Source of the DNA: a virus
Length of the DNA stretch: 53,416 bases
Reading direction: 5' to 3' (one strand)
IMG/VR virus record: IMGVR_UViG_3300033998_000181
Location: 1-53,416 of that record
The position numbers were made by a program, and so were the translations under genes. A model generated the notes under the pieces. It made no database searches. It had not been told where the DNA came from and saw nothing but the letters and a program-made list of their open reading frames with translations. Within the stretch, counting starts at the first letter, position 1; every line of letters starts with the position of its first letter. Shown here one piece after another: positions 1-53,416 of this stretch.

Positions 1-625
1 TGTGACCTGTAAAAGACCATTCTTGAGCACCACTAGAATTGATCTTACGAACTGTTCTATCTCTTGAACCGCTAAAACATCCACCATCAGTAGGGTGCGC
101 CGACACACTACCCACAGTATTGGTGTGACCTGTAAAAGACCATTCTTGAGCACCACTAGAATTGATCTTACGAACCGTGTTATCGTCTGAACCGCTAAAA
201 CATCCACCATCAGTAGGATGTGCAGACACACCGTACACAGTACTGGTGTGACCTGTAAAAGACCATTCTTGAGCACCACTAGAATTGATCTTACGAACTG
301 TTCTATCTCTTGAACCGCTAAAACATCCACCATCAGTAGGGTGCGCCGACACACTACCCACAGTATTGGTGTGACCTGTAAAAGACCATTCTTGAGCACC
401 ACTAGAATTGATCTTACGAACCGTGTTATCGTCTGAACCGCTAAAACATCCACCATCAGTAGGATGTGCAGACACACCGTACACAGTACTGGTGTGACCT
501 GTAAAAGACCATTTCTGTAATCCAGTAGCGTCAATTTTACGAACCGTGTTATCGTCTGAACCGCTAAAACATCCACCATCAGTAGGATGTGCAGACACAC
601 CGTACACAGTACTGGTGTGACCTGT
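1..625 (-). repeat. 123-bp tandem repeats coding WD40 units (array 1)
   Basis: About five copies of a 123-bp unit (41 codons); the shared GACCAT word recurs at 15, 138, 261, 384 and 507. Two main versions alternate, one coding SGSRDRTV with HTNTVG and one coding SGSDDNTV with HTSTVYG. The copies are nearly identical at DNA level except the most N-terminal one (near 507), which has diverged. Positions 1-127 are identical to 53264-53390. Confidence 0.95.
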
Positions 626-1234
626 AAATCTACCCACTATTGCTGGTTTTGTAAGACCTAACTTATCAGTGCTTATATAATCACCTATCTTGTAATCTCC
701 TTCTTTGACGGTGCCGGTAACTCCAAAAATTGTTACACCTTGTTTAATGTTCGAAGCTACTAAGTTCGCATCTCCTTTGACGTAGCCACTTCCATTGTGA
801 TAGCCAGCTGCTATCTCTTGGTTAGTAGTACCAGGCGTGATTACTACGGCACCTCTGTTAGGCATTGTACCTGTACGCTTCGCGCCGCCTTGATAGAAAG
901 TCTTACCGCTTAAAACATCACCTACAGCAGCATCAGCATCAGTAGAGATTGCACGTATCTTGTTTGCTAATGTATCGTAACTATCACTACCAGAAGCGGC
1001 TTGCCCCATAGCGGTAATAGCATCGGCTACAGTGGTTTTTCCGTTTACTGTATTAGTGTACAATTCATGTAGTGCGGCTTCGACGTTCTCAGCTACAAAA
1101 TGCCCTTCGGTGTCGATAAGTAGAATTCCGTCTGCGTTGCGTAGTACAGCGATGTTTCCTTCTATTCGATTCAAGTCAGTATCTGTTACCCCGTCTGCTG
1201 CAGTCCAGTTAGTTTTAGGAGTTTGCCAAGCCAA
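1..1234 (-). CDS. Tail fibre, N-terminal part, with WD40-like repeats (partial at window edge)
   Basis: Starts at TTG 1234 behind a strong GGGGAGG-type ribosome site and runs leftward off the window start. The N-terminus begins MAWQTPKTNW and contains a motif with DLNRIEGNI and an IDTEGHF motif, as seen in fibre proteins of Firmicutes phages. Next comes a segment with SGKTFYQGG and a TGTMPNRGAV motif, common in phage adhesins, then 41-residue WD40-like repeats (GH..TV..VSAHPTDGG.FSGS.D.TVR). It would sit at the tail tip and may bind the host surface. The reading frame matches the piece at 52776-53416, so both are probably one gene whose true length is unknown. Domain call by motif; binding role inferred. 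Confidence 0.8.
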   Translation of the reverse strand, partial: MAWQTPKTNWTAADGVTDTDLNRIEGNIAVLRNADGILLIDTEGHFVAENVEAALHELYTNTVNGKTTVADAITAMGQAASGSDSYDTLANKIRAISTDADAAVGDVLSGKTFYQGGAKRTGTMPNRGAVVITPGTTNQEIAAGYHNGSGYVKGDANLVASNIKQGVTIFGVTGTVKEGDYKIGDYISTDKLGLTKPAIVGRFTGHTSTVYGVSAHPTDGGCFSGSDDNTVRKIDATGLQKWSFTGHTSTVYGVSAHPTDGGCFSGSDDNTVRKINSSGAQEWSFTGHTNTVGSVSAHPTDGGCFSGSRDRTVRKINSSGAQEWSFTGHTSTVYGVSAHPTDGGCFSGSDDNTVRKINSSGAQEWSFTGHTNTVGSVSAHPTDGGCFSGSRDRTVRKINSSGAQEWSFTGH

Positions 1235-1246
1235 AAGCCTCCCCTC

Positions 1247-1438
1247 CTATCTAGTAACTGTATACAACTCATGTAAAGCACCTTCTAGAGTAGTGGATGT
1301 GAAATGTCCTTCTGTATCGATGATCAGTACATTGTCGGCCGTACGCAATAAACGAATGTTCTCTTCAATCCTGTTGAAGTCGTTGTAAGTTATACCTGGT
1401 ACCGAAGTCCAGTCGGTTTTAGGTGTTTGCCACGCCAG
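1247..1438 (-). CDS. Small protein duplicating the fibre N-terminal domain
   Basis: A 63-residue protein that matches the first ~60 residues of the WD40 fibre: WQTPKTDW, a FNRIEENI helix, IDTEGHF and ALHELYT. The in-frame start is a CTG at 1436-1438, nine bases behind AGGAGG; no ATG, GTG or TTG fits, because a TGA lies in frame four codons upstream. It ends at TAG 1247-1249, just before the fibre ribosome site. It is likely an orphan copy of the fibre attachment domain, perhaps a second fibre adaptor or the remnant of a duplicated fibre. Homology is seen in the sequence; the role is inferred. Confidence 0.7.
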   Translation of the reverse strand: MAWQTPKTDWTSVPGITYNDFNRIEENIRLLRTADNVLIIDTEGHFTSTTLEGALHELYTVTR

Positions 1439-20431: not shown

Positions 20432-20455
20432 TTTAGACGACTCCTTCTTACTTTA

Positions 20456-20484
20456 ATTATACATCAAAATCAAGGACAAGGCAA
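20456..20484 (-). promoter_or_regulatory. Late promoter (sigma-A-like) for the structural operon
   Basis: On the minus strand TTGCCT, 17 bases, TATAAT, ending 24 bases before the terS start at 20431. An inverted repeat CAAGGACA/TGTCCTTG (around 20471-20519) brackets the -35 side and may be an operator. It is the only good promoter seen upstream of the whole late operon. Confidence 0.8.
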
Positions 20485-21121: not shown

Positions 21122-21145
21122 AGAGCCCAGATTGTGTCTGGGCTC
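21122..21145 (-). terminator. Hairpin terminator after the small Cys-rich gene
   Basis: AGAGCCCAG, six-base loop, CTGGGCTCT: a 9-bp perfect stem directly after the leftward gene at 21155-21322. On the minus strand it is followed by TTAATATT, a weak T-rich tail, so termination is likely but not certain. Confidence 0.7.
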
Positions 21146-21154
21146 TCTGTACTG

Positions 21155-21322
21155 TTATTCTCTGTCTTCATCTGTGACTACCTCGTCTTCATCTGTGACT
21201 ACGTTGTTAGGAAAGGGCCACCCGTAAGGTCCTACACCTTCTTCTACTTTACAATACGCGCAGTGGTCAATCCCATCATAACATAACTTGCAGACGGTTC
21301 CACACAGTTCGCTTCTCTTCAT
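21155..21322 (-). CDS. Small Cys-rich, zinc-ribbon-like protein
   Basis: 55 residues, ATG 21322 behind AAGGAGGC. Cysteines at 7, 11, 14, 21 and 24 (CGTVCKLCYDGIDHCAYC) suggest a small metal-binding fold. The C-terminus is an acidic tandem duplication (VVTDEDE, VVTDEDR) coded by a 21-bp direct repeat. It has its own promoter (21353-21382) and hairpin terminator, so it is a monocistronic unit. Possible regulator or host-takeover peptide; no family recognised. Confidence 0.75.
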   Translation of the reverse strand: MKRSELCGTVCKLCYDGIDHCAYCKVEEGVGPYGWPFPNNVVTDEDEVVTDEDRE

Positions 21323-21811
21323 TGTAGTGCCTCCTTTATCTTATTTTTGTTTATTATATACAAAACATAGTACCAAAATCAATATGGTAGTGTTATATTT
21401 TCGAAGCATATCCCGGTATACAGACGGCAACCACTTACATACAGGTCTAACGTTTTCATGAGGCGCCTGCAGCGGTACCGACCCTCAGGTTCTATGCAGA
21501 GCTGGTTTTATATGTGTTCTGCGTTTTCTAGGGCGCCCACTTTGAGTTTGGTTATATAAGGGCGAGGCGTTTTCTAGGGCGCCCGTACCAGTTGTGTGTA
21601 GGGGCCTATTACCGGTCCGCGTGCGTTAAAGAGGTGGCTGAGGAAGATGCTACGCCAAGCGCTAGTGGGCGCCCACTATATCGTAGTAGCAAGACGCGGG
21701 CGTTTTCTAGTTCCTGCCCAGCACTCGTGGGCTCCCACGATACAGCTGGCACATAAGTTACAGTGTTTTCTGATGCCTGCCCAGCATACTTGGGCGCCCA
21801 CGTGTTGGGAG
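21323..21811. other. Gene-free stretch rich in box A/B repeats
   Basis: No supported gene. Contains the promoter of the 55-residue gene, a segment (21429-21475, AACCACTTA and ATGAGGCGCC) that resembles 22702-22735 upstream of the next promoter, and six to eight box elements. Two tandem ~64-bp units at ~21700-21740 and ~21763-21805 each carry GTTTTCT, then CCTGCCCAGCA, then a box B. Confidence 0.6.
21353..21382 (-). promoter_or_regulatory. Family I promoter for the 55-residue gene
   Basis: Minus strand TTGATT, 18 bases, TATAAT. The -35 continues as TTGATTTTGGTAC, shared with the promoters at 22643 and 23190. An inverted repeat (GTACCA ... TGGTA) is centred on the -35, a possible operator. Confidence 0.75.
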
Positions 21812-21840
21812 CAAAAAGAAAGGAGGGCGTGTAGCCCTCT
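21812..21840 (-). terminator. Rho-independent terminator of the leftward small-gene operon
   Basis: On the minus strand AGAGGGC, five-base loop, GCCCTCC, then TTTCTTTTTG. It lies 29 bases after the stop of the 64-residue gene at 21869. Confidence 0.85.
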
Positions 21841-21868
21841 GTGCTTAGCTACGCGTCGAGTCTCCTCT

Positions 21869-22063
21869 TTATAACATAGCGAACACTTCGTTCCACTCTT
21901 CATCTAGTCGTAATACAGTAGCTAAGTCGCAAATAGCTCCTATCAATTCCAGCGCGCGTAGGAAGTAATCGTGTTTGCCAGTTAGTACATAACTTTCCAT
22001 ACGGTCACTGACATGCTCCATTTGCATCTTGTAGAAACATTCGAACGTTTGCTTCTTATCCAT
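21869..22063 (-). CDS. Small helical protein of unknown function
   Basis: 64 residues, ATG 22063 (MDKKQTFECFYKM) behind AGAGGAGGT, better placed than an upstream start. Mostly helical: FLRALELIGAICDLATVLRL and EEWNEVF. It is the last gene of a three-gene leftward operon starting at 22599 and overlaps the upstream gene by eight bases. No family recognised. Confidence 0.7.
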   Translation of the reverse strand: MDKKQTFECFYKMQMEHVSDRMESYVLTGKHDYFLRALELIGAICDLATVLRLDEEWNEVFAML

Positions 22064-22220
22064 AGTTGATGTACCTCCTCTTGGTGTAATCACTTGTCAC
22101 CTTCATCACTACGAACCATGGGGTCACTAATATCGCTTTTCCGTACCAAGGCCCGACTCTGAAGTAGTGCCCCATTGTTGGCTTGATCATCTGTTTTGTC
22201 CCAAACACCTTCAGCCTCAT
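22056..22220 (-). CDS. Small basic protein of unknown function
   Basis: 54 residues, ATG 22220 behind GGAGGCG. Sequence is Lys/Arg and aromatic rich (MRLKVFGTKQMIKPTMGHYF, GPWYGKAILVTPWFVV). The stop codon lies inside the start region of the next gene, so the pair is translationally coupled. No family recognised; it fits a small nucleic-acid or protein-binding peptide. Confidence 0.7.
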   Translation of the reverse strand: MRLKVFGTKQMIKPTMGHYFRVGPWYGKAILVTPWFVVMKVTSDYTKRRYINYG

Positions 22221-22269
22221 AGTGTCGCCTCCTCGTACTTGTGGTTTAGGTAGGAAAAGGAGGTAAGCC

Positions 22270-22599
22270 TTAGCTTACCTCTGAACTCTCTTGTTCGTCC
22301 TCCTCGTTGCCTTCCTCTAACTGTTGGCGGAACTTTCTAACTACTTGGTGCACAAATGCGTAGTTGGTGTTCAGCTTCTTAGCAATTTGACCCGGAGTTA
22401 ATCCTTGTGCTGCAAGCTCCCTGATCATCTGGGAAGTGGTTACTGGATTAGCCTTCCTCACCTCTTCTCCCTTCTTAGCACAGTGACGCGATATCACGTT
22501 GTACGCAAACTGGTAACGCACTCCTACGGCCTCCGCGATCTCCGCTACTGTCATGTTAGTGTTGTCGTACATCTCTCTAATCTGTGCACTCTTAGACAC
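22270..22599 (-). CDS. Double HTH-module DNA-binding protein
   Basis: 109 residues from GTG 22599 behind AGGAGGGG. Two HTH modules in tandem: residues ~5-40 (QIREMYDNTNMTVAEIAEAV then RYQFAYNVI) and ~54-92 (MIRELAAQGLTPGQIAKKLN then YAFVHQVVRKF). The tail is acidic (EEGNEEDEQESSEVS). The modules resemble those of the triple-HTH protein at 31660. It is first in its operon, under a promoter with a dyad on the -35, suggesting autoregulation. Probable transcriptional regulator; target unknown. Confidence 0.8.
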   Translation of the reverse strand: MSKSAQIREMYDNTNMTVAEIAEAVGVRYQFAYNVISRHCAKKGEEVRKANPVTTSQMIRELAAQGLTPGQIAKKLNTNYAFVHQVVRKFRQQLEEGNEEDEQESSEVS

Positions 22600-22934
22600 G
22601 GTAAACCCCTCCTGTTATTGGTTATTGTGTATTGTTACTTTTATTATATCACATCTTGAGTACCAAAATCAAGGTGGTACTTCAAAATTTTTCTGAAGTG
22701 TAACCACTTAAAGGTAAAGAGCGTTTATATGAGGCCCACGTTTTATATGCGACCCCGCCTCGCCTTGGGCGCCCACCGGTGGCCGGCTAGCAGTTTCTTT
22801 GAGGAGCCATAGAAAACGACCTGCACTTAGCAACAACTCTCTTTAAGGAGACATAGAAAACGCGCCGTCCTCATGTAACAAAAGACTCATGAGACGTCTA
22901 TCTAGTGGGCGCCCAATGGGCCTCGGGAGCTTCA
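22600..22934. other. Gene-free stretch with promoter and box repeats
   Basis: Holds the promoter at 22643-22672, the AACCACTTA ... ATGAGGC segment (22702-22735), box B copies at 22766 and 22905 and inverted box A copies at 22803 and 22847. No coding sequence supported. Confidence 0.6.
22643..22672 (-). promoter_or_regulatory. Family I promoter for the HTH operon, with dyad operator
   Basis: Minus strand TTGATT, 18 bases, TATAAT, 44 bases before the GTG start. The -35 lies in a perfect 6-bp inverted repeat GTACCA-N9-TGGTAC, a likely repressor or activator site. Confidence 0.8.
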
Positions 22935-22946
22935 TCAAGAAGCTCC
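22926..22946. other. 8-bp hairpin overlapping the end of the HTH remnant
   Basis: GGAGCTTC, five bases, GAAGCTCC, followed on the plus strand by TTTACTT. It could be a weak terminator; no strong T-run on either side. Confidence 0.5.
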
Positions 22947-23167
22947 TTTACTTGTCTCTGCCCTAGCAGCGCGCCTACTCAGCAACTTTGCTATATTGCG
23001 GACAAATGTAATGTTTACATCGAGAGATTCCGCAATTTCCTCTGGTGTGAATCCCATCTCCAGAAAAGTTCTAATCTCAGAAGCCTTATTTCAGCTATGA
23101 CCTGCTTCAACAAGCCACGCGGCTCCCTACCAGTGTTGGGTGCATTCTGCACAGTGGGTGCGGCCAC
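22935..23167 (-). pseudogene. Frameshifted HTH gene related to the double/triple HTH proteins
   Basis: From GTG 23167 the frame codes VAAPTVQNAPNTGREPRGLL then KQVIAEI; at ~23090 the sequence needs a -1 shift to continue as ASEIRTFLEMGFTPEEIAES, then NITFVRNIAKLLSRR, ending TGA 22935-22937. The second half is clearly an HTH like that of the 109-residue protein (TP..IA..L...Y/FV). There is no good slippery site or ribosome site, so decay is more likely than programmed shifting. Confidence 0.6.
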
Positions 23168-23189
23168 TTGAAGAATTTCAAATGCCCTC

Positions 23190-23219
23190 TTGATTTTGGT
23201 TCTTGATTCATGATATAAT
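23190..23219 (+). promoter_or_regulatory. Family I promoter for the rightward small-gene operon
   Basis: TTGATT at 23190-23195, 18 bases, TATAAT at 23214-23219; the -35 continues TTGATTTTGGTTCTT as in the two leftward family I promoters. Drives 23268 to 24549. Confidence 0.8.
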
Positions 23220-23267
23220 CATATCAAAGATTATTGATCAAAACTACACAGGAGAGGAGGTGATGTC

Positions 23268-23489
23268 ATGTTCTGTCCTCTACTTTCGGTGCCGGCGGAT
23301 GAATACATTCCGTGCCCGCACACGAACGGTATAAGTGAAAAGAACGAAGCGGCACGCTGTTGCTGGTGGAACTCTATGGCACAAGAGTGCTCTTTCACAA
23401 CGTTAGCGAAAGCCTTTACACCTAGACATGTCGAGGTGAGTACCCATGAAAAGACGCAATCACGGTGGTTTAGAAAAGACGCAGACTGA
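23268..23489 (+). CDS. Small Cys-containing protein, first gene of rightward operon
   Basis: 73 residues, ATG 23268 behind GAGGAGGTGA. Cysteines at 3, 16, 31, 32 and 41 (MFCPLLSVP, YIPCPHTNG, ARCCWWN, QECSF) hint at metal binding. It overlaps the next gene by 44 bases. No family recognised. Confidence 0.65.
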   Translation: MFCPLLSVPADEYIPCPHTNGISEKNEAARCCWWNSMAQECSFTTLAKAFTPRHVEVSTHEKTQSRWFRKDAD

Positions 23490-23670
23490 GCGACTGAAGG
23501 AGCGTTGTTTGGAGTCGCTTGCTAAAACAGTGAGAGTTCTCGATGTAAACGCTGACGACCCTGACCGGATCGTAGTTACGCTGATGTGTGAAACACCATG
23601 TGAGACTGTTTACTTGACGTTCTATGTTAATGATAAAGGTGCTGAGCTCATGGACGCATGCGCTGAGTAG
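23446..23670 (+). CDS. Small conserved-looking protein of unknown function
   Basis: 74 residues, ATG 23446 behind GAGGTGAG. Helical first half (TERLKERCLESLAKTVRVLD), beta second half (DRIVVTLMCETPCETVYLTF, then YVNDKGAE). It overlaps the upstream gene in another frame; the ribosome site is good, so both may be used. Confidence 0.65.
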   Translation: MKRRNHGGLEKTQTERLKERCLESLAKTVRVLDVNADDPDRIVVTLMCETPCETVYLTFYVNDKGAELMDACAE

Positions 23671-23719
23671 CAACTTAACAAGTCAAATAACTAACTTAAC
23701 CAAGGAGGGTCAAATAAAC

Positions 23720-23923
23720 ATGAAGGTACAAAACAACACTGTAAGTGCGGAGTTTCTTGAGAGGAAGGAGACAAAAGGGACATACTCGTTCTACGAAGTG
23801 GATGACGGGACCGGAGAGCAACTCACTGGGATCATCTACATCAAAAAGGGAGCGCTGCGCAAACTCGGGTATAAAACAGGAGACATTGTTGTAGTTACTG
23901 TCAGCGTCAAAAAGGAGGGCTAG
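23720..23923 (+). CDS. Small beta-barrel-like protein, possibly nucleic-acid binding
   Basis: 67 residues. ATG 23720 behind AAGGAGGG is chosen over an upstream in-frame ATG. Pattern: VSAEFLERKETKGTYSFYEV, GIIYIKKGALRKLGY, KTGDIVVVTVSVKK. The closing strand with KTGDIVVVTV looks like an OB-type or AbrB-like small barrel. Function not determined; no family recognised with confidence. Confidence 0.7.
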   Translation: MKVQNNTVSAEFLERKETKGTYSFYEVDDGTGEQLTGIIYIKKGALRKLGYKTGDIVVVTVSVKKEG

Positions 23924-24403
23924 ATGATGGTGACGCAAAGTTACGAAGAGATCATAGCTGAGCTGAAGGAGAGGCTTGCTATTCGCGATGCGTTCGCGGG
24001 GTTGAAGAGAAGCTTCGAGGACCTAGTGAAGCTTTTCGGTTTGTACGGATTACATTACAGTGTGCACGGTGAACTCGAAGTACATGTAGAAAAAGGGAAA
24101 CTCCAGAGGTTGTGTCGTGTACTAGGTACCGAACTGCACACCATCAAAAGGAGTAGTTATAAGTTCTACCCCATAGAGCTCTACACATACGTCGAAGGCA
24201 TCAAAGTTTACGCATTGACAGGAGATGAAAATTATGCGCAAGAGACGTTGGAACCCGAACAAGTGTGTACCACTACAGATTCTGCACTACCTGATAGGGG
24301 CGCTAGCTCTAACACCGATCCTACTATACCTCATGAAGGGTATAATGTAGAGGAGTCAGAATTCGAAAGAGAAGAGGAACGGAGTGGTCGAGATTCCTAC
24401 TAA
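23924..24403 (+). CDS. Unknown protein with acidic C-terminal tail
   Basis: 159 residues, ATG directly after the previous stop, behind AAGGAGGG. Helical N-terminus (SYEEIIAELKERLAIRDAFA), beta-rich middle (HYSVHGELEVHVEKGKLQRL, SSYKFYPIELYTYVEGIKVY), then a disordered acidic tail (DPTIPHEGYNVEESEFEREE). No known domain is recognised. It is the fourth gene of the 23.2-24.5 kb operon. Confidence 0.7.
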   Translation: MMVTQSYEEIIAELKERLAIRDAFAGLKRSFEDLVKLFGLYGLHYSVHGELEVHVEKGKLQRLCRVLGTELHTIKRSSYKFYPIELYTYVEGIKVYALTGDENYAQETLEPEQVCTTTDSALPDRGASSNTDPTIPHEGYNVEESEFEREEERSGRDSY

Positions 24404-24549
24404 GACAATCGCTCAAACAACGCGCTCCAGTCATTACCTACAACGTGACGATTGAGCAACTGAACCTGTATCTACAAGGAAACATCGAGGAGCTCATTCC
24501 TAAGTCAGGGCGATTCGAAGTCTATAACCCACGAAGAAGAAAGAGATAG
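24361..24549 (+). CDS. Possible small basic protein with an ATT start
   Basis: 62 residues if ATT 24361 is used, five bases behind an excellent AGAGGAG. No ATG, GTG or TTG fits near the ribosome site. The peptide is protein-like and basic (RRGTEWSRFLLRQSLKQRAP, TYNVTIEQLNLYLQGNIEEL, ending RRRKR), overlaps the upstream gene in another frame and ends two bases before the terminator. Real ATT starts are rare, so this is tentative. Confidence 0.45.
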   Translation: MRKRRGTEWSRFLLRQSLKQRAPVITYNVTIEQLNLYLQGNIEELIPKSGRFEVYNPRRRKR

Positions 24550-24578
24550 AGGAGGCGGTACAGCCTCCTTTCTTTCTT
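24550..24578 (+). terminator. Rho-independent terminator of the rightward small-gene operon
   Basis: GGAGGC, six bases, GCCTCC, then TTTCTTTCTTC, immediately after the last stop codon. Confidence 0.9.
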
Positions 24579-25693
24579 CGCGCTGCCTCTTCTTTCTACC
24601 ATGGGGTATGTGGTGCGTACTTTAAAACGCCGCGGTGCTTTGTGAGAGCATGACTCTTGCAAAAGTCCGTGGTTGTGGGGAAATATTTTCAGAAAATTCA
24701 GAATTTTGAAACTGGATCTGTTGGATCCAAAAATTTTTAACTTCTTTTTTTATATATTTTTATTCCCCATATTAATTAATATATTTAATTATTTCTATAT
24801 TAATTATTTCTATATTAACTATTTCTTTTTTCTTTATATTTTTTTTTTTAATTTTTTAGATCCAAAAGATCCAATTTATTCCCCATTCAATATTTATAAA
24901 GGTTTTTTAATGCACTTTTAATTGATTTCCCCTAAACTCAGGATCGTATACAAAAATTTACAATCTCTAACAAAAAGGCAACAAAATTAACAAAAGCTAC
25001 TAAATTAAACAGTTTGATAAAATTTTTACTCTACAACTGTCACACGTTCGCTCACTATAACTCACTTTTTTTACTTATTTTCCAAAAACTCTTACAAAAG
25101 CTAACAAAAACTAACAAAAAGTTACAAAAGTTTCCTAATTTGGATCAGAGCCTTGCTCCAAAATCACCGATCCAAACAAAATTTAACAAAAGCTAACAAA
25201 ACTTCACAAAAACTAACAAAAAATAACAAAAACTTACTCCCCCTCACTGAAAAATCTGACATTCGGAAACTCACAAAAACTAACAAAACTTCACAAAAAC
25301 TTACTCCCCAAACTTACTTAACTACAGAAATGATTAAGTCACCTAAACAATTTCTAAATTTTTTCCAAAAATAAATTCAAAATTTCTTGATCCAACAGAT
25401 CCAATCTGTTCCCCATTCAATAATCTCTAAGCTCCCCACGAGGATCTATTTTTCTTCCCCAAAATTTCAAACCAATCAAACCAATCACACAACGAACCTT
25501 AACACAGAGCCTCGAACCGCCAATGACACCACGCCGAATGCACCCAAAAAACCCACCTGGTAGAGTCGAGGCACAGACTGCGCCTACCAATCGTTCGAGG
25601 TGGTGAGCTGAAGCGCAAGAAATTACAGGCACTCAACGGACTGTGGGCACCCAAAGACCTAATCACAGAGCAAGTTATCCGAACTAGACAGAC
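24579..25693. other. AT-rich island with iterons: candidate replication origin
   Basis: No supported gene. 24690-25400 is far more AT-rich than the rest of the window. It has nine exact TAACAAAA copies (24968, 24988, 25102, 25112, 25184, 25194, 25214, 25224, 25281) plus many variants, all on the plus strand. It is bounded by 34-bp direct repeats at 24859-24892 and 25389-25422 (three mismatches) and an inverted GGATCTGTTGGATCC at 24714-24728. The primase-helicase lies next on the right. An AT-rich unwinding region with same-strand iterons is typical of a phage origin. Confidence 0.65.
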
Positions 25694-25722
25694 AAAGGCC
25701 TACTAAAACGTAGGCCTTTCCT
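25694..25722. terminator. Bidirectional terminator
   Basis: AAAGGCCTAC, six-base loop, GTAGGCCTTT: a 10-bp stem with A-run and T-run on the two flanks, so it can stop the leftward early operon and rightward transcription. Confidence 0.85.
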
Positions 25723-25753
25723 AAGTTAACTACCAGCTTCCTAAGTTAACTTC
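25721..25753. repeat. 22-bp direct repeat with CTAAGTTAAC
   Basis: CCTAAGTTAACTACC and CCTAAGTTAACTTC lie 22 bases apart between the terminator and the end of the leftward early operon. The core CTAAGTTAAC resembles the operator-like repeats at 20751-20888 and may bind the same protein. Confidence 0.6.
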
Positions 25754-25759
25754 AATTCT

Positions 25760-26014
25760 CTAAGCCAATTGTATGTTAATTTCTACTTTAGCTTGTCCAA
25801 CCTTCTCAAACCTCCACTTGTGACGTCCGTTAAACTCGATTCTTGTTCGAAAGTCAAACAGTGGGTAGACGTAAAGTTTCCTGTCTTCTAATCGCATGCA
25901 AACCACTGTACTCGCATTGGATCTAGAGTCTCGTGCAATGCCTAATATTACGTACTCTTTCCCTCGATGGCACTGCCAGATATCGCCTACCACCGGAGAA
26001 GGTCTCGTCTTCAT
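25760..26014 (-). CDS. DUF1653-like small protein
   Basis: 84 residues, ATG 26014 behind GGAGGT. VVGDIWQCHRGKEYVILGIA, MRLEDRKLYVYPLFDFRTRI and HKWRFEKV follow the DUF1653 pattern (G..Y.H.KGK.Y.VLGIA). The family is common in phages and of unknown biochemical role. It overlaps the tiny upstream leader by four bases (ATGA). Last gene of the leftward early operon. Confidence 0.65.
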   Translation of the reverse strand: MKTRPSPVVGDIWQCHRGKEYVILGIARDSRSNASTVVCMRLEDRKLYVYPLFDFRTRIEFNGRHKWRFEKVGQAKVEINIQLA

Positions 26015-26091
26015 AAGTGCACCTCCATAAACGATTTCACTTTCAATAATGCCCCTCGCTCCTTCATCCGCTCCTTCATCCGCTCCTTCAT
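26011..26091 (-). CDS. Possible 26-residue leader peptide with tandem MKER repeats
   Basis: ATG 26091 behind AAGGAG; the 12-bp tandem repeat (26063-26100) codes MKERMKERMKER, followed by GALLKVKSFMEVHL. Each repeat unit also recreates a GGAG-plus-ATG. Its TGA overlaps the ATG of the DUF1653-like gene. The tight coupling favours translation, but the peptide is short and repeat-based. Confidence 0.45.
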   Translation of the reverse strand: MKERMKERMKERGALLKVKSFMEVHL

Positions 26092-26100
26092 CCGCTCCTT
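26063..26100. repeat. 12-bp tandem repeat (ATCCGCTCCTTC), about three copies
   Basis: On the plus strand ATCCGCTCCTTC is repeated in tandem between two early genes. On the coding (minus) strand each unit is GAAGGAGCGGAT, offering repeated GGAG ribosome-like sites and ATG codons. Confidence 0.9.
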
Positions 26101-26341
26101 ACTTCTGTCCTTGTCTCCTTAGTTGAAACTGTGTACCATCCTTCAACTCTATTGTGTCAAACATTTTTAGTGGGCCGCGCCACTCTCCGTTTCTCTTCAC
26201 GTACAGCTTATCGTCCGCGCGCGCTTTGCACCAGATGCGAACAAAATAAGCACTGACAGTACCTGCAGTGGTGCAGATTACTGTTTTACCATTGACAATT
26301 ACTGGTCGTAGCTGTCTCGCTTCGCCGCCACCAGTCACCAC
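26099..26341 (-). CDS. Small beta-rich protein with a repeat-disrupted start
   Basis: ~80 residues: ARQLRPVIVNGKTVICTTAG, FVRIWCKARADDKLYVKRNG, PLKMFDTIELKDGTQFQLRR. The good ribosome site (AGGAGGT) and ATG at 26374 are in frame, but four copies of a 10-bp repeat introduce TGA at codon 10. Initiation must use the GTG at 26341 or nearby, or reinitiate after that stop. With one repeat copy the frame from ATG 26374 would be intact. No family recognised. Confidence 0.6.
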   Translation of the reverse strand: MVTGGGEARQLRPVIVNGKTVICTTAGTVSAYFVRIWCKARADDKLYVKRNGEWRGPLKMFDTIELKDGTQFQLRRQGQK

Positions 26342-26371
26342 CAGTCACCACCAGTCACCACCAGTCACCAC
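26331..26371. repeat. 10-bp tandem repeat (CCAGTCACCA), four copies
   Basis: Perfect tandem copies at 26331, 26341, 26351 and 26361, inside the 5' end of the small early gene. The unit length is not a multiple of three, so copy-number change alters the reading frame. Confidence 0.95.
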
Positions 26372-26414
26372 CATCTTTGACCTCCTACATGATTCCTGTT
26401 TCTTGCCCCGGGGC

Positions 26415-32479: not shown

Positions 32480-32492
32480 AGAATCATAGAAC

Positions 32493-32618
32493 AGAGAATA
32501 GAGAATAGAGAATAGAGAATAGAGAATAGAGAATAGAGAATAGAGAATAGAGAATAGAGAATAGAGAATAGAGAATAGAGAATAGAGAATAGAGAATAGA
32601 GAATAGAGAATAGAGAAC
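32493..32618 (+). repeat. Heptanucleotide microsatellite, AGAGAAT x17 plus one variant
   Basis: Seventeen perfect AGAGAAT units and a final AGAGAAC, between the promoter (32451-32479) and the ribosome site of the next gene. Purine-rich in the transcript. Copy number is expected to vary by replication slippage. Confidence 0.97.
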
Positions 32619-41488: not shown

Positions 41489-42034
41489 ATGCCTATTGTT
41501 GCGATTGTTGGCCCTGACGGTGCCGGGAAAACAACTATTGTAGAAGCACTACGAAGCAAGTTGGATTGTGACTATCACAAAGGTTCGTATGAGCCACCAG
41601 ACAAAATGGTTCATACATTGGTAGAGGTCATTTCGAGAGCTCGTCCGAGTAGGATCTTGCTTTGTGATCGCCTTCATTACCCCGACGATATAGTATACTC
41701 TAGAGCAGTACGAAACATTCCTTCTACTTTAGAGTTTGTGGTACCTTTATGTGAATATGTTTTACGTGAGAATGATACGTTCTTACTCTACGTCAACGCA
41801 GGGTTGCACGTCTTAAAGCTTAGGCTCCTCGCTAGGGGCGATGATTATGTCAAAGATTTAAGTGTTTTACCTTTAATACAACGTTACTATGAAGATTTCC
41901 TGAGCAGAACTAGACTACCTTATAAGGTGATAGATACGAGTTGGGCTGATCCTGAAACGGTTGCCGAGCGCGCCGAAATGTATATCGCAGAGCGTTGGCC
42001 AAGACTATATAAGGAGGCTCTTAAACATGAGTAA
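41489..42034 (+). CDS. Thymidylate/deoxynucleotide kinase-like P-loop protein
   Basis: 181 residues. Walker A MPIVAIVGPDGAGKTTIVEA, then LLCDRLHYPDDIVYSRA (DR-type substrate loop), LYVNAGLHVLKLRLLARGDD. This is a thymidylate-kinase-like fold. Its gene overlaps queC by eight bases. It may phosphorylate a dNMP, perhaps dTMP from ThyX. Confidence 0.8.
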   Translation: MPIVAIVGPDGAGKTTIVEALRSKLDCDYHKGSYEPPDKMVHTLVEVISRARPSRILLCDRLHYPDDIVYSRAVRNIPSTLEFVVPLCEYVLRENDTFLLYVNAGLHVLKLRLLARGDDYVKDLSVLPLIQRYYEDFLSRTRLPYKVIDTSWADPETVAERAEMYIAERWPRLYKEALKHE

Positions 42035-42686
42035 AGCTATAGTATTACTAAGCGGCGGTATGGATTCTGCAGTTACTGCGGCAGTAGCACGTCGAGAAAA
42101 CGAAGAAGTAATCGCGTTAAACGCTTACTATGGACAAAAACATTCCGTCGAGCGTGAGTGCGCTCGCAAGTTAGTAGGGCTACTGAAACTAGATGGCTAT
42201 ATTGAATTAGATTTAAGTTTCATTTTTACGCATATGCGTAGCTCACTCTTACGACTATCCAACATTCCTATTGACGATAACCAACCAAAAAACGAGGTAG
42301 GCGCAACATATGTACCAGGGAGGAATTCGATCTTCTTGTCAATTGCAGCAGGCATAGCAGACTCCATGGGAGCGCAGTTTGTATACTATGGGGCACATCA
42401 AGAGGACCATGCAGGATACCCTGATTGTAGAGCAGAATACTTTGTGGCAATCCGTGACGCTCTCAGATTGGGCACTAAGAATGAAGTGGTTCTCAAGGCA
42501 CCTTTTATCACTAAGCCTAAGAGCTACATTGTCCGAACTGGTATAGAACTCGGCGTCCCGTTCGAACATACACATTCCTGTTATCGCGGCGAGAGACCCG
42601 CGTGCGGCACATGTCCAACGTGTCAGATAAGGTTACAAGCGTTTGCAGAAGCTGGAATCGAGGATCCCTTGCCGTATAGGAGGTAG
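42027..42686 (+). CDS. queC: 7-cyano-7-deazaguanine (preQ0) synthase QueC
   Basis: 219 residues; ATG 42027 behind AAGGAGG. PP-loop LLSGGMDSAVTAAV (residues 7-20) and C-terminal zinc set Cys185, Cys193, Cys196, Cys199 (ERPACGTCPTC). YVPGRNSIFLSIA motif present. It makes preQ0 from 7-carboxy-7-deazaguanine with ATP and ammonia. Single domain, not fused to an amidotransferase. Starts the 7-deazaguanine block queC-queD-queE-folE-dpdA. Confidence 0.95.
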   Translation: MSKAIVLLSGGMDSAVTAAVARRENEEVIALNAYYGQKHSVERECARKLVGLLKLDGYIELDLSFIFTHMRSSLLRLSNIPIDDNQPKNEVGATYVPGRNSIFLSIAAGIADSMGAQFVYYGAHQEDHAGYPDCRAEYFVAIRDALRLGTKNEVVLKAPFITKPKSYIVRTGIELGVPFEHTHSCYRGERPACGTCPTCQIRLQAFAEAGIEDPLPYRR

Positions 42687-42691
42687 TTAAT

Positions 42692-43120
42692 ATGTACGCC
42701 GTTTCTAAAACGTTTACTTTTGACTGTGCTCATATGTTACCTTTTCATGAAGGACAGTGTAAGAACTTACACGGACATACGTACAAGTTAGAGGTCACTG
42801 TAGCACGAGATATCTTGAATGCTGGAAATAACATGATTGTAGACTTCGCAGAATTAAAGAGTATAGTACAGGAACGCATTATAGATCGTTTTGATCATGC
42901 TTTTGTGTATTGTCAACGTAACGAGTTTGAATGTGAAGTAGCCGAACTATTGGAGAAGCATAACCTGAAAACATTGAAGTTACCTAGTCCTACTACGGTA
43001 GAGAATATGTCTGCATATATTTATAATGTACTCGAAATAGCATTGGAAGACAAGGGCGTAAAACTGGTAAAGGTGCAGTTATGGGAAACCCCTACGAGTC
43101 ATGCTGCTTATTGGAGGTAA
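42692..43120 (+). CDS. queD: 6-carboxy-tetrahydropterin synthase QueD
   Basis: 142 residues. FDCAHMLPFHEGQCKNLHGH with zinc ligands His14, His27, His29 and catalytic Cys23; TTVENMSAYIYNVLE and VQLWETPTSHAAY at the end. It makes 6-carboxytetrahydropterin from the FolE product. Five bases after queC, ribosome site AGGAGGT. Confidence 0.95.
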   Translation: MYAVSKTFTFDCAHMLPFHEGQCKNLHGHTYKLEVTVARDILNAGNNMIVDFAELKSIVQERIIDRFDHAFVYCQRNEFECEVAELLEKHNLKTLKLPSPTTVENMSAYIYNVLEIALEDKGVKLVKVQLWETPTSHAAYWR

Positions 43121-43124
43121 TGTG

Positions 43125-43721
43125 ATGTATAAACTACCAGTACTAGAAATATTTTCAAGTATTCAGGGCGAAGGATATCATATGGGCAAATGGACAATGT
43201 TTATTCGACTAGCCGGATGTAATTTAAAATGTCCTTGGTGTGATACCAAAGACATAATGCAGATGGCTGCGCGAGATCTTACTGTAGATGATATAGTGAA
43301 AATAGTAGCCAAAAGAAACGCCTCCGTTGTAACTATCACTGGCGGAGAGCCTACCATACATGATATGGAGGCTCTCTCCTACCTAATTTACAAGTTACAG
43401 CTGTTAGGCAAGTACGTTACAATTGAAACCAATGGCACTAACCCTACGCCTGCGAATGTCAATTGGGTTACATGTTCGCCAAAACCTGGTAATGATTACA
43501 AGATTCACTCCAAGTGTAGATACAACGAATTAAAGTACGTAGTAGACGAAACTTTTGCGCCTGAGTATATAACGACATTAGCGATATCGAGAAGGGTACC
43601 TATTTACGTACAGCCTGAAGGAATGAAACCAGAGAACATACGTCGTTGTCTGGAGCTAGTGCAGCATTTTCCTTTTCTTACTCTTGGTGTGCAATTACAC
43701 AAAGTATTGGGGGTACAATAA
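43125..43721 (+). CDS. queE: 7-carboxy-7-deazaguanine synthase QueE (radical SAM)
   Basis: 198 residues; ATG 43125 behind [26 protein letters not shown] and [15 protein letters not shown] with Cys32, Cys36, Cys39 (CxxxCxxC, Fe-S/SAM); [19 protein letters not shown]. It forms the 7-deazaguanine ring from the QueD product. Its stop overlaps the folE start (TAATG). Confidence 0.95.
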
Positions 43722-44278
43722 TGAAAGCACCGAATTTCGTTGAAGCTGGATTTAGAATGATGCTTATCGGGTTAGGTGAAGATCCGGATCGAGAAGGATT
43801 GAAGGCTACTCCACGACGAGTACGTGAAATGTGGGAAGAGATCTTCCGAGGATTAGAATGCGATCCAAAACGTCATTTAGAAACTACTTTCCAAGAAGAT
43901 CACCAAGAGATGGTAGTTGTGAGAGATATTCCGTTCTACTCTATGTGCGAACACCACTTTGTACCTTTCTTTGGAAAAGCACATATCGCCTATATCCCAC
44001 AAGGCAAAGTAGTCGGACTTAGTAAGCTGGCACGTACCTTGGAGGAGTACGCCAGAAGGCCGCAGGTACAGGAACGCCTGACTTCACAAATAGCTGACGC
44101 TATCGACGAAGTGCTGAAGCCCTTAGGAGTAGGAGTAGTGATAGAAGCAGAACATATGTGTATGACAATGAGGGGTATCAAAAAGCCAGGGAGCAAGACT
44201 ATTACCTCTGCGATGCGGGGCGTGTTTCTTGATAAACCGGAGGTACGTGCCGAGTTCATGAACCTTATAGGGAGGTAA
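43721..44278 (+). CDS. folE: GTP cyclohydrolase I
   Basis: 185 residues. [40 protein letters not shown] (Cys76), [36 protein letters not shown] (Cys147). First step from GTP to dihydroneopterin triphosphate. In this operon it feeds QueD; phages with 7-deazaguanine DNA often carry their own folE. Confidence 0.95.
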
Positions 44279-45071: not shown

Positions 45072-47450
45072 ATGTCACAATGGTCTCATTTATGTAAAGG
45101 ATGTGTATATGAGCGTTATCCAAAGATACCGCCTAGTCCTTTAAAAGGGGCTAGGCTCGCTATTGTTGGCGAAGCACCAGGTGTAATAGAACTTGCACGC
45201 AAGAAACCTTTTGTAGGGCCTTCAGGGGAGTTGTTGAGGAAAACGTTTCAGCACGTAGGGTTGCCTAATTTAGACGAAGTCTTTATAACCAATGCACTCT
45301 TATGTCGACCTCCTAAAGGTCAGATCAACAAACAAGCAGTGAGCTTGTGTAGTCGAAGGTTAATCGATGAACTCGTCAGAGTGAGTCCTAGAGTAATAAT
45401 TGCTTTCGGTAATACTGCGATTCATGCATTGACGGGTGACTTCAAGTTAAAGATAACTCAAATACAAGGACAGGTGTTACAGTCTGACTTACTAAAACCT
45501 TGCAACCCTGCTATTGTACCAGTGTTGCATCCGGCAGCAGTGCTTCGTGCTGGAGGCGCCTTTGGGCAATTTGTACAGGCGTTGCGCAGAGCATACGAAG
45601 TATACGTCACAGGAGAAGTAAGAAAGTTGCCCGAGCCGACATTTACAGTCATCGAAAACGGAGCTATGTTAGAACGTGCAATTAAAGGACTAGTCAAACG
45701 TCCCTTGCTTGGCGGGGACATTGAAACCCACGGTAACCCTCGTACTGGACGTATATTGTGCTTAGGTGTGTGCTGGAACGAACCAAAAGGGACGGATCCT
45801 GAACCGGGACGAGTATTGATTTTCCCAGAGGATATGATTCCGTACACCAAACCACTCCTCGAGCACCCTTACCCTAAGTGGATATGGCAAGGTGGAAAGT
45901 ATGATATGGAATGGCTATGGGAGAGAGGCATTAAAGCGCGACTCGATCACGATACTATGATGTTACACTACGCTCTCTGCGAACAAACTGGTACTCATGG
46001 GCTAGATAAGTTGTCGGTGCTCTACCTGGGTGACGAGCCTTATAAGCATGTAGTTCGTGACTACAGTAAAGGCAAGAAAAAAGAAGGCTTCGGCGATGTA
46101 CCGAAGGAAGTGTTGTATCCTTACTTGGCAAAAGACGTAGACAGAATGGTACGTCTGTTCCATATATTCTACCCAAAGGTTATGTCAGACAGAGACCTTA
46201 TGAAATTGTACTACAGACTATTACTTCCAGCGAATCGTTTCCTTGTTAAAGTACAAAGCAGAGGACTCCTGGTAAACTTCGAAGAATTAGAGGAGGAAGA
46301 TGCGCGTCTACAGGAGGAAATAGAACAATTAGAGAGGGAGATTATAGAGCTAGCAGCGCCCTACTGGGACCCTGACGAGTACTTAGCACAAACAGACAGG
46401 AAAACAGCGACAGAAATTTTCAAGCCCAGTAGTACGTACCAGTTGGCGTGGCTGTTGTATGAAAAACTAGGATTACGTGCCAAGTATATGAAGGGGAGGA
46501 GTACCAAAGAAGAGGTTCTCGAGCAGTTAAAGGGACAACATCCAATAGTAGACAAGATTTTGGAGTATCGTGAGGTCAAAAAGTTACATTCGACGTACAT
46601 TAGAGGTACCCAAAAATGGATTGAGGAGGACGGTAGAGTACATACAGGATACAAGGTACACGGTACCGTCACGGGAAGGTTAAGTTCAAGCCAACCTAAT
46701 GTTCAAAACATACCAAAGAAGATTCGTAGAATCTATCACGCGCCTCCCGGATTCGTTTTAATTGATGCTGACTATAGCGGCGCCGAGTTACGCATACTAG
46801 CGTACGTTAGCGGCGACAAAGAACTGGTACAGATTTTTAAGGAAGGACGCAGCTTGCATAAGGAAGTGGCTAGAGAGTTCTTCGGCCCTAACTATACAGA
46901 TGAGCAGTACATGAGGGCGAAAGCAGTAAACTTTGGCATAGCCTATGGTAGGACAGCGTTCTCGCTATCCGTCGAGATGGACATTCCTCAAGAAGAAGCA
47001 CAATCGTATATCGATCGCTGGTATGCGCGGTTCCCTGAAGCGCATAAATACTTGTTAGAGTGCGATGCAGCTGCACGTCGTGGAGAAGTACTCGTTACTG
47101 ACTTAGGCAGAAAGCGGAGATTTGGTCTCGTGACACCTGAGAACGTAGATACTCTAGAAAATGAAGCACGTAACTTTAGAATCCAATCACTAGCGAGTGA
47201 TATGACGCTTATCTCTGCTATACGCATGGATCCACTTATCAATCGTTGGGGCGCTCGAGTTGTAAACTTGGTTCATGACAGTATTGTCATTGAGTGTCCT
47301 ATTACCGAAGTAAAAAGAACAATTCGTCTTGCACACAACATCATGGTACGTACGCCTAGAGAAATATTAAAGACAGACATCCCATTCGAAGCTGAGTTCA
47401 AAGTAGGCTTTGTTTGGGGTAAAGACATGATGGAATTTAAAGTCGAGTAG
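45072..47450 (+). CDS. DNA polymerase I with N-terminal family-4 uracil-DNA glycosylase
   Basis: 792 residues. Residues 1-180: Cys8, Cys11, Cys78, Cys93 (Fe-S ligands), GEAPGVIELARKKPFVGPSG, ITNALLCRPPKGQ and VLHPAAVLR, the family-4 UDG motifs. Residues ~210-400: 3'-5' exonuclease (GGDIETHGN, Asp216/Glu218; later LAKDVDRM). Residues ~420-792: polymerase A, motif A LIDADYSGAELRIL (Asp567), motif B RAKAVNFGIAYG, motif C VHDSIVIE (~735). The replicative polymerase of the phage; the glycosylase could remove uracil at or ahead of synthesis. Confidence 0.9.
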   Translation: MSQWSHLCKGCVYERYPKIPPSPLKGARLAIVGEAPGVIELARKKPFVGPSGELLRKTFQHVGLPNLDEVFITNALLCRPPKGQINKQAVSLCSRRLIDELVRVSPRVIIAFGNTAIHALTGDFKLKITQIQGQVLQSDLLKPCNPAIVPVLHPAAVLRAGGAFGQFVQALRRAYEVYVTGEVRKLPEPTFTVIENGAMLERAIKGLVKRPLLGGDIETHGNPRTGRILCLGVCWNEPKGTDPEPGRVLIFPEDMIPYTKPLLEHPYPKWIWQGGKYDMEWLWERGIKARLDHDTMMLHYALCEQTGTHGLDKLSVLYLGDEPYKHVVRDYSKGKKKEGFGDVPKEVLYPYLAKDVDRMVRLFHIFYPKVMSDRDLMKLYYRLLLPANRFLVKVQSRGLLVNFEELEEEDARLQEEIEQLEREIIELAAPYWDPDEYLAQTDRKTATEIFKPSSTYQLAWLLYEKLGLRAKYMKGRSTKEEVLEQLKGQHPIVDKILEYREVKKLHSTYIRGTQKWIEEDGRVHTGYKVHGTVTGRLSSSQPNVQNIPKKIRRIYHAPPGFVLIDADYSGAELRILAYVSGDKELVQIFKEGRSLHKEVAREFFGPNYTDEQYMRAKAVNFGIAYGRTAFSLSVEMDIPQEEAQSYIDRWYARFPEAHKYLLECDAAARRGEVLVTDLGRKRRFGLVTPENVDTLENEARNFRIQSLASDMTLISAIRMDPLINRWGARVVNLVHDSIVIECPITEVKRTIRLAHNIMVRTPREILKTDIPFEAEFKVGFVWGKDMMEFKVE

Positions 47451-51187: not shown

Positions 51188-52255
51188 TTAAAGTGTTATG
51201 GTTACTTTTCGAGTCTTTTCGTCCCACTCCACTCGTGCGTTTAGTCCCTCTGCCACGAATCGAACCGGGACGAATGTGCGCCCGTCTTTAAGAAATGGAG
51301 CTACATCCATGGTACTTTTCAGCCCGTTCACTGTGTACTCTTTCTGTCCTATAGTCATTACGACTTCGCGTGGGACGGTGTCATCAGCATGAAAGCGACC
51401 GAAGCTGAAAACACCGAAACCATAACGTTCGTCCTTACCAGGTACACCTAAGTCATCTGCGTACAAATTCAACGCTACTCGGATCTCTTCAGGTGCCAGC
51501 TTCCTTCCGAAACGTTTCAGCGCTTTTGCTTGTAGGATTGCACAAGCACCTGCAATGTGCGGACACGCCATGCTGGTACCAGAAAGGAGGGCATACTGAC
51601 CGTTTAGATAAGTACTGTAGACATCTACTCCTGCGGCTGCCAAGTCCAATTCTAAGCCGTAAGCGGACCATTCGGCAGGCTTCTTGTCGATATCGACTGC
51701 AGCGACGGCAAGAACTTCTGGATACTTTGCTGGATATAAAACACCATAATCTCTGCCGAAGTTACCTGCAGCAGCTACCATGACGATGCCTGCTTCGTAA
51801 CACTTTTTGATTTCCTGACGTATCGAACTGTCGTCGGAGGGACTACCGAAAGACATCGATATGATATCTATTTTGTTCTTTTGACACCACTGTAAGGCTC
51901 CTGCTATTGCAGCAGGCGAGGCGCTTCCTTGATCAGGAAAAACCTTCAAGGTAACAAGCTCGACTTCTGGTGCTACACCTTTAATTTTCCCATTTGCAGC
52001 AATAATACCACAACAGTGAGTAGAGTGACCGCGACGATCTTCTACACCAGTACCAGTAAAGTCGACGTAATCAGCAATACGCAAGTCCGAATGGTTAGGT
52101 TTACCAGTGTCAATAACTGCAACTTTGATTCCCTTTCCTTTTGTTTCAGGCCACTCCAACGGGGCGCCAATCATCTGCACACCGTAAGGAATCTCTGGCG
52201 GTGCTTCAGACTGAACGTCTACTACGTGAAAGTAGGGTAACCGAAACTCGCACAA
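51188..52255 (-). CDS. Subtilisin-like (S8) serine protease with copper-amine-oxidase-like C-terminal domain
   Basis: 355 residues from TTG 52255 behind GGGAGG. Catalytic Asp49 (VAVIDTGKPNHSD), His80 (RGHSTHCCGI), Ser ~230 (LSGTSMACPH). No signal peptide is visible. Residues ~295-355 (YTVNGLKSTMDVAPFLKDGR, FVPVRFVAEGLNARVEW) match the Cu_amine_oxidN1-type wall-associated domain seen in anaerobic Firmicutes. It sits between fibre-end genes and the lysis genes. May cleave host surface or S-layer proteins, or phage proteins. Confidence 0.88.
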   Translation of the reverse strand: MCEFRLPYFHVVDVQSEAPPEIPYGVQMIGAPLEWPETKGKGIKVAVIDTGKPNHSDLRIADYVDFTGTGVEDRRGHSTHCCGIIAANGKIKGVAPEVELVTLKVFPDQGSASPAAIAGALQWCQKNKIDIISMSFGSPSDDSSIRQEIKKCYEAGIVMVAAAGNFGRDYGVLYPAKYPEVLAVAAVDIDKKPAEWSAYGLELDLAAAGVDVYSTYLNGQYALLSGTSMACPHIAGACAILQAKALKRFGRKLAPEEIRVALNLYADDLGVPGKDERYGFGVFSFGRFHADDTVPREVVMTIGQKEYTVNGLKSTMDVAPFLKDGRTFVPVRFVAEGLNARVEWDEKTRKVTITL

Positions 52256-52336: not shown

Positions 52337-52462
52337 CTATTGTGTAGAAGCTAATCTACGCTCTACTTCTGCTTTATAATCTGGATCCTTGATTTGATCA
52401 ACAGTTAACTTACCATCCTTTATTAACGTAATAAGTGCCTGAACATAACTTTCCAATAACAT
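52337..52462 (-). CDS. Small XkdX-like protein
   Basis: 41 residues; ATG 52462 behind GGAGGG, start overlapping the upstream stop (TAATG). LITLIKDGKLTVDQIKDPDY resembles the XkdX-type short proteins found after tail fibres in PBSX-like phages. Role in tail unclear. A 75-base gap to the protease gene contains no gene. Confidence 0.6.
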   Translation of the reverse strand: MLLESYVQALITLIKDGKLTVDQIKDPDYKAEVERRLASTQ

Positions 52463-52764
52463 TAGATAATACCCTCCTTTTCCAACATCATTAGCATGAG
52501 TGCACTCATCTTGTCATTTTGTTCTTCAATAGCCTCTTCTGGCGTCAAGGGTCTATCGACGAACTCGTACCAAAACTCACCAGTTTGGGGGTTACAATAC
52601 TCAAGTGCTGTCTTACCTTTTTGATAAGGCTTCGCTGGTATTTCATCAATAGTAATGTACGGCATGTTAATTTCTGCTAGCTCTTCTGGAGTCGGTTCCC
52701 TAAAGTAAATCAACATTACTCTAGCTTTGGTATCAGTTTCCTTTTCGTAAAATAACCACTTCAT
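52462..52764 (-). CDS. Small late protein after the fibre
   Basis: 100 residues; ATG 52764 behind AGGAGGT. Mixed charged sequence: WLFYEKETDTKARVMLIYFR, PTPEELAEINMPYITIDEIP, then PLTPEEAIEEQNDKMSALML. The arrangement (short protein plus XkdX-like gene after the fibre) is common in Gram-positive phages. Function unknown. Confidence 0.65.
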   Translation of the reverse strand: MKWLFYEKETDTKARVMLIYFREPTPEELAEINMPYITIDEIPAKPYQKGKTALEYCNPQTGEFWYEFVDRPLTPEEAIEEQNDKMSALMLMMLEKEGII

Positions 52765-52775
52765 AACGATACCTC

Positions 52776-53416
52776 CTAACCTGTTATTTTTAATTTATCT
52801 ATAAACTTAGTTACTGTAAAAAATCCACTGGTAGTGAGACCAACAAAACAACCGCTAATGTTAGAGCCTGGGATTGCAGATATACTGTATATATAACCAT
52901 CCGAGTAGGCCCACTCTTGGGCACCACTAGAATTGATCTTACGAACTGTTCTATCTCTTGAACCGCTAAAACATCCACCATCAGTAGGGTGCGCCGACAC
53001 ACTACCCACAGTATTGGTGTGTCCTGTAAAAGACCATACTTGAGCTCCACTAGAATTGATCTTACGAACTGTTCTATCTCTTGAACCGCTAAAACATCCA
53101 CCATCAGTAGGATGTGCAGACACACCGTACACAGTACTGGTGTGACCTGTAAAAGACCATTCTTGAGCACCACTAGAATTGATCTTACGAACCGTGTTAT
53201 CGTCTGAACCGCTAAAACATCCACCATCAGTAGGATGTGCAGACACACCGTACACAGTACTGGTGTGACCTGTAAAAGACCATTCTTGAGCACCACTAGA
53301 ATTGATCTTACGAACTGTTCTATCTCTTGAACCGCTAAAACATCCACCATCAGTAGGGTGCGCCGACACACTACCCACAGTATTGGTGTGTCCTGTAAAA
53401 GACCATACTTGAGCTC
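52776..53416 (-). CDS. Tail fibre, C-terminal part, with WD40-like repeats (partial at window edge)
   Basis: About 213 codons entering from the right edge, the C-terminal continuation of the fibre begun at 1234. About five 41-residue WD40-like units (SVSAHPTDGG.FSGSRDRTV and the DDN version), then a final non-repeat cap (YIYSISAIPGSNISGCFVGL, TSGFFTVTKFIDKLKIT). Frame is consistent with 1-1234 across the junction. The number of missing units is unknown. Confidence 0.8.
   Translation of the reverse strand, partial: AQVWSFTGHTNTVGSVSAHPTDGGCFSGSRDRTVRKINSSGAQEWSFTGHTSTVYGVSAHPTDGGCFSGSDDNTVRKINSSGAQEWSFTGHTSTVYGVSAHPTDGGCFSGSRDRTVRKINSSGAQVWSFTGHTNTVGSVSAHPTDGGCFSGSRDRTVRKINSSGAQEWAYSDGYIYSISAIPGSNISGCFVGLTTSGFFTVTKFIDKLKITG
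52915..53416 (-). repeat. 123-bp tandem repeats coding WD40 units (array 2)
   Basis: Continues the array at 1-625. A variant unit (TCCTGTAAAAGACCATAC with GAGCTC) occurs at 53021-53046 and again at 53390-53416, exactly 369 bases (three units) apart, indicating a higher-order period of three units. Confidence 0.95.

Follow-up and report, generated by a model that had tools for sequence, protein, structure and literature searches.

A single tail-fibre gene, carried on the minus strand, is split between the two ends of the window (the whole 53,416-nt stretch analysed, from IMG/VR record IMGVR_UViG_3300033998_000181): its N-terminus lies at 1-1234 and its C-terminus at 52776-53416. The split falls within an array of at least ten 123-bp units, each of which is predicted to be one blade of a WD40 β-propeller. 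We consider it quite probable that the fibre tip is a receptor-binding propeller evolving by shuffling and homogenisation of its units, in the way of the fungal HET-E/HET-D sensors.

Layout of the fibre gene

The features of the gene and of its neighbours are listed in Table 1. The initial annotation had located the repeats at 52776-53416 only; this holds for the C-terminal half and leaves out the N-terminal half at 1-1234. The left piece is an N-terminal fragment of 411 aa preceded by a strong RBS, and the right piece comprises 212 aa of the C-terminal part, up to a stop codon. Tandem Repeats Finder (TRF) reported a 123-bp array in each, at 1-628 (5.1 copies, 89% matches, score 986) and at 52916-53414 (4.1 copies, 91%, score 807), both far beyond chance. 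Unit boundaries were set by cutting at TTTACAGG, which gave five complete units on the left, four on the right, and 13 and 17 bp of interrupted units, i.e. nine complete units, or ten with the one cut by the contig ends. The partner of the diverged terminal blade is probably the N-terminal d strand KPAIVGRFTGH, going by an inferred strand assignment. For the short gene upstream of the fibre, CTG is the only near start and the start is thus uncertain; as to the small gene downstream, a 110-aa gene occupies the matching position in L034, a viral contig with a WD40 fibre.

Table 1. Coordinates of the fibre gene, its repeat units and the adjacent genes
Feature	Position	Strand	Remarks
N-terminal fibre anchor/shaft	629..1234	-	WQTPKTNW...NRIEGNI; TMPNRGAVVITPGT...GYHNGSGYVKGD; TTG start, good RBS; PHROG tail fibre 26419
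WD40 unit u1	506..628	-	type A with diverged 3' end, DATGLQKWS (A*)
WD40 unit u2	383..505	-	type A
WD40 unit u3	260..382	-	type B
WD40 unit u4	137..259	-	type A
WD40 unit u5	14..136	-	type B
Start of interrupted unit, contig end	1..13	-	
Last 17 bp of interrupted unit (probably type C), contig end	53400..53416	-	
WD40 unit v1	53277..53399	-	type B'
WD40 unit v2	53154..53276	-	type A
WD40 unit v3	53031..53153	-	type C: 5' half like A, codons 25-28 like B, tail GGAGCTCAAGTATGG of its own
WD40 unit v4	52908..53030	-	type B', last regular unit
Diverged terminal blade and stop codon	52776..52907	-	YIYSISAIP / GCFVGL / FFTVTKF
Short gene upstream of fibre	1247..1438	-	63 aa; copy of the fibre's N-terminal module as a separate gene, directly upstream
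Small gene directly downstream of fibre	52462..52764	-	100 aa
S8 subtilase with Cu_amine_oxidN1 domain	51188..52255	-	synteny marker near fibre

The repeat unit as a WD40 blade

A WD40 propeller had been proposed at the outset, and both profile searches and structure prediction agree with it. The Pfam family PF00400 was matched with 95.7 and 83.1 bits (cut-off 27; E = 1.1e-27 and 1.1e-23). Single-sequence AlphaFold2 gave a pLDDT of only 33 for the N-terminal half, and a model based on a ten-row alignment of related repeats was used instead. For residues 190-411 this model reached a pLDDT of 94.9 and a pTM of 0.89; its 20 strands form five four-stranded blades, arranged as an arc without ring closure. 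Its best Foldseek match was the highly repetitive WD40 propeller 2ymu (TMq 0.90, rmsd 1.3), also found by phmmer (1.1e-117), which we take to be Npun_R6612 of Nostoc. These predictions indicate that each 123-bp unit encodes one WD40 blade.

Unit types, their order and recombination

Read along the gene, the left part runs A*, A, B, A, B plus 13 bp, and the right part 17 bp (the tail of a C), B', A, C, B' and the diverged terminal blade. The three regular A units (u2, u4 and v2) are identical (0/123 differences), as are the B units u3 and u5; v1 (B') departs from B at a single silent base, and v4 does likewise apart from its 3' end. Thus there are 0-1 differences within a unit type, against 14 bases between A and B. 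Type C (v3) resembles A as far as codon 24 and B at codons 25-28, and has a tail of its own; it occurs once whole and once as the 17-bp tail, the unit cut by the contig ends being probably of this type. The units alternate by two on the left (A B A B), and a three-unit order is seen only on the right (C B' A C B'). The earlier description, i.e. at least ten near-identical 123-bp units in alternating versions with a three-unit higher order, therefore stands, with the two kinds of order on opposite sides.

Consecutive blades are nearly identical at the DNA level too, as is expected of a recent amplification. Since the A copies are identical and the C unit is a hybrid, we favour a recent expansion accompanied by recombination between units, in keeping with the expansion or gene conversion suggested in the initial annotation. 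Type C is an A/B recombinant as assembled; in principle it could be an assembly chimera, SPAdes having been reported to create chimeric repeats in such WD40 arrays (PMC12222747), and the assembled copy order may itself be prone to assembly errors.

A/B differences cluster at the predicted binding face

Amino-acid differences between types A and B are found at positions 6, 9, 10, 25 and 27, and silent changes at 12, 13, 14 and 28. All five amino-acid differences are at the d-a or b-c turns, and the change at positions 25-27, from D-D-N in A to R-D-R in B, is from acidic to basic. In the fungal HET-D/HET-E repeats codons 7, 9, 25 and 27, located in the d-a loop and the b-c turn on the interaction face, are positively selected while 8 and 26 are conserved (PMC1805685). 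The phage unit appears to share this register, judging from the landmarks V8 and D26, both constant. Three of the four fungal sites (9, 25 and 27) vary in the phage, in addition to 6 and 10 (hypergeometric p=0.0036, computed post hoc). The same trend was found in five other viral WD40 arrays, where positions 5, 6, 7, 9 and the two b-c positions show about double the within-array variety of the remaining ones, a contrast that none of 20,000 randomly drawn position sets equalled. In L034, for instance, face positions have 4.5 distinct residues versus 2.2 elsewhere.

Between A and B, dN is 0.10 and dS 0.21, i.e. a dN/dS of about 0.5, so that positive selection of the differences is not demonstrated. 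The clustering of the variation supports selection for binding and does not prove it, because such loops vary in WD40 proteins generally.

A conserved N-terminus with an exchangeable tip

The N-terminus of the fibre is 67% and 56% identical to that of the fibres of two other phage contigs, L005 and L006, and the WQTPKTNW...NRIEGN module stands at the head of many otherwise different fibres, on viral as well as Bacillota contigs. When Bacillota assemblies were scanned with the fibre, only N-terminal relatives were recovered. The pair formed by the short gene and the fibre is found in the same order in L005, L006 and L043. What follows the shared N-terminus is variable: in L006 the tip is made of Kelch repeats (PF01344, 5.2e-18), and in L005 it is a non-propeller domain with a weak BclA_C match below the cut-off. 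A conserved fibre N-terminus followed by a variable C-terminus, within a tail operon, is what characterizes a tail fibre, and the assignment of the gene as such is upheld by this conservation and by its position.

The exchangeable tip also bears on the possibility that the propeller is a structural spacer or a tail decoration, and its repetitiveness the outcome of mutational expansion only. Highly repetitive propellers do arise continuously in many families, apparently because blades tend in general to be amplified (PMC9218822), and the A/B dN/dS is not above 1, both of which would suit a spacer. Neither the confinement of the A/B amino-acid differences to the d-a and b-c turns nor the replacement, in related fibres, of exactly this part by other domains, a Kelch propeller included, would be expected of one, and we regard this explanation as unlikely compared with a receptor-binding tip.

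Why the contig breaks inside the array

The 127 bp at the right end (53290-53416) have exactly one other exact copy, with a mismatch at base 128. Those at the left end (1-127) likewise have an exact match elsewhere bounded by a mismatch, and a longer match of 267 bp as well, the latter because u2u3 = u4u5. The largest k-mer usually used by SPAdes and metaSPAdes being 127, both ends look like k=127 vertices of an assembly graph. Direct joining of the ends is in frame and leaves a 30-bp stub of a unit, which bears out the earlier remark that they form no proper repeat. IMG/VR classes the record as linear, because no end repeats were found.

The related phage L005 carries on one contig the short WQTPKTNW gene, the fibre and the S8 subtilase, which directly follows the fibre and is there fused to an Amidase_2 domain. 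The window has the short gene at one end and the subtilase at the other; minus-strand genes and a negative GC skew continue across these ends. From the 127-bp repeats, the gene order in L005, the GC skew and the gene strand, we concluded that both fragments belong to the same gene and that the genome maps as a circle. It is the assembly that introduced the break, as the initial annotation had suspected and as the repeats at both ends and the synteny with L005 bear out; the record probably lacks little more than a few repeat units. SPAdes assemblies of fungal WD40 arrays similarly contain fragmented, shortened or chimeric repeats (PMC12222747).

That the ends are instead those of a genuine linear genome, with two separate fibre genes carrying related arrays, is very improbable. 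Such a genome would account for the linear class, for the lack of end repeats and for the window by itself giving an N-terminal and a C-terminal piece, but each end interrupts an open frame, at a 127-bp repeat that is exact and is delimited by a mismatch, one piece is without a C-terminus and the other without an N-terminus, and the flanking genes are contiguous around one fibre in L005. Fibre genes of this kind can be broken or miscounted in short-read virus catalogues, where a circular-mapping phage that is nearly complete can also be listed as a linear fragment.

Number of blades

A closed WD40 ring has seven blades (6-8). The array, interrupted by the contig end, contains at least ten units; a single ring of seven blades is therefore excluded if the assembled units are real. 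If the N-terminal d strand closes the diverged terminal blade, ten units plus this blade would make 11 blades. When only the unit adjacencies observed in the contig are allowed, paths of 11, 13, 14, 15 or more units can be drawn. Thirteen units would give 14 blades, i.e. two seven-bladed propellers, and we put this forward as one compatible solution; 14 blades as a unique total was rejected, since 11, 13, 14 or more units all fit the adjacencies. Two seven-bladed rings are suggested by the layout in the Clostridioides phage pCD1602_4 (seven blades, a linker and seven blades) and by the model of fungal HET-E, which has 11 conserved and 3 cryptic blades (PMC12222747).

As to variation in length, an exact 21-bp scan of viral contigs yielded no second record with the array, and neither half of the window had a megablast match among phage records. 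The Clostridioides-type fibres L034 and L118, which are related and can be aligned over the greater part of their length, have seven and five blades, respectively, before the linker; for the length variation proposed in the initial annotation this difference is indirect support only.

Comparison with known systems

The closest match in sequence and fold is with the highly repetitive (WRAP-type) WD40 propellers such as 2ymu, made of near-identical tandem blades. Highly repetitive WD40 arrays occur in all domains of life and in viruses (PMC9218822). The phage blades differ from the WRAP type in forming the tip of a tail fibre, and in having two alternating top-face types plus a recombinant.

The fungal HET-E/HET-D (HNWD) repeats are near-identical units of 126 bp, against 123 bp in the phage. 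The two share variation at turn positions, including 9, 25 and 27 (PMC1805685), and an array that short-read assemblies fragment or miscount (PMC12222747); unequal crossing-over has been proposed for the fungal repeats (PMC1805685, PMC12222747). Unlike the HNWD proteins, the phage protein has neither a HET nor a NACHT domain (Pfam), is a fibre rather than an intracellular immune receptor, and has units that are far less diverse in the one sequence seen.

Among phages, pCD1602_4 (CP069348) and its relative L118 have, like the window, a fibre-like gene encoding WD40 blades, with a small gene after it and an amidase-like one at a greater distance. Their blades are nevertheless diverged, without near-identity, and are preceded by a different N-terminus; the layout is 7 + linker + 7 in pCD1602_4 and 5 + 7 in L118. 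WD40 arrays were also seen on other viral proteins, for example the L118 fibre and a 778-aa protein in twelve contigs (L105-L116), which we take to resemble a phage tail or baseplate protein. The S. aureus phage phi11, a Gram-positive siphophage, likewise has a propeller domain in its receptor-binding protein Gp45 (PMC4901313); this propeller is five-bladed, non-WD40, without near-identical blades, and followed by tower domains. Gp45 and the pCD1602_4 fibre show that a propeller is in itself nothing unusual for a receptor-binding protein of a phage; the initial annotation had called WD40 propellers unusual as fibre domains. Repetitive WD40 propellers, propeller receptor-binding proteins of phages (PMC4901313) and repeat-based recognition in fungi are thus already known; what is new is that they come together in a phage fibre in which two top-face codes alternate. 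No paper dedicated to WD40 phage tail fibres was found among the open-access papers searched.

Proposed mechanism

The phage would be a tailed phage of the Bacillota type, whose fibre is presumably attached to the tail by the conserved N-terminal module. The C-terminal tip would be a WD40 β-propeller, most likely a pair of them, that binds a structure on the host surface. Its blades would have been amplified recently as 123-bp units, and unequal recombination, gene conversion or both would keep the scaffold homogeneous. The same recombination could reshuffle the two top-face codes, carried by acidic D-D-N and basic R-D-R blades, to yield hybrids such as type C, and it would probably change the number of blades.

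We tentatively extend the proposal: shuffled WD40 blades with swappable acidic and basic faces might constitute a generator of receptor specificity that needs no retroelement and gives rise to fibre-length variants in the population. It is conceivable, at a similarly low level of confidence, that this generator is an independent phage counterpart of the HET-E/HET-D repertoire. If blade shuffling does alter the choice of receptor, phages could vary their host specificity without any retroelement, in a manner resembling the repertoire for self/non-self recognition in fungi. That a diversity-generating retroelement targets the fibre and makes the variable positions is very improbable: such elements diversify some phage tail proteins and the A/B differences are clustered, but no reverse transcriptase was found among the larger ORFs scanned, and whole units are copied together with their linked silent changes (TCT/TCG, GCA/GCG, CAT/CAC).

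Other features of the record

Adjacent genes at 41961-44278 code for QueC, a PTPS/QueD-like protein, a radical SAM (QueE-like) protein and GTP cyclohydrolase I, i.e. the preQ0 pathway, which suggests 7-deazaguanine modification of the DNA; a search of the record gave no TGT/DpdA-type protein (PF01702). A single ORF at 45072-47450 joins a uracil-DNA glycosylase domain, at the N-terminus, to a family A DNA polymerase. The region 20400-26400 (about 6 kb) has few clear genes and contains dispersed 36-bp repeats ending in GCGTTTTCTAGGG(C/A)GCCC, and at 24769-25234 there is an AT-rich stretch with short tandem repeats. At 32488-32617, just upstream of the RBS that starts the plus-strand gene block, AGAATAG is repeated 18.6 times with 99% identity; this 7-bp period is not a multiple of three. 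Lastly, tandem repeats of 66 bp, in about three copies, are present at 6516-6744 inside the tape-measure gene.
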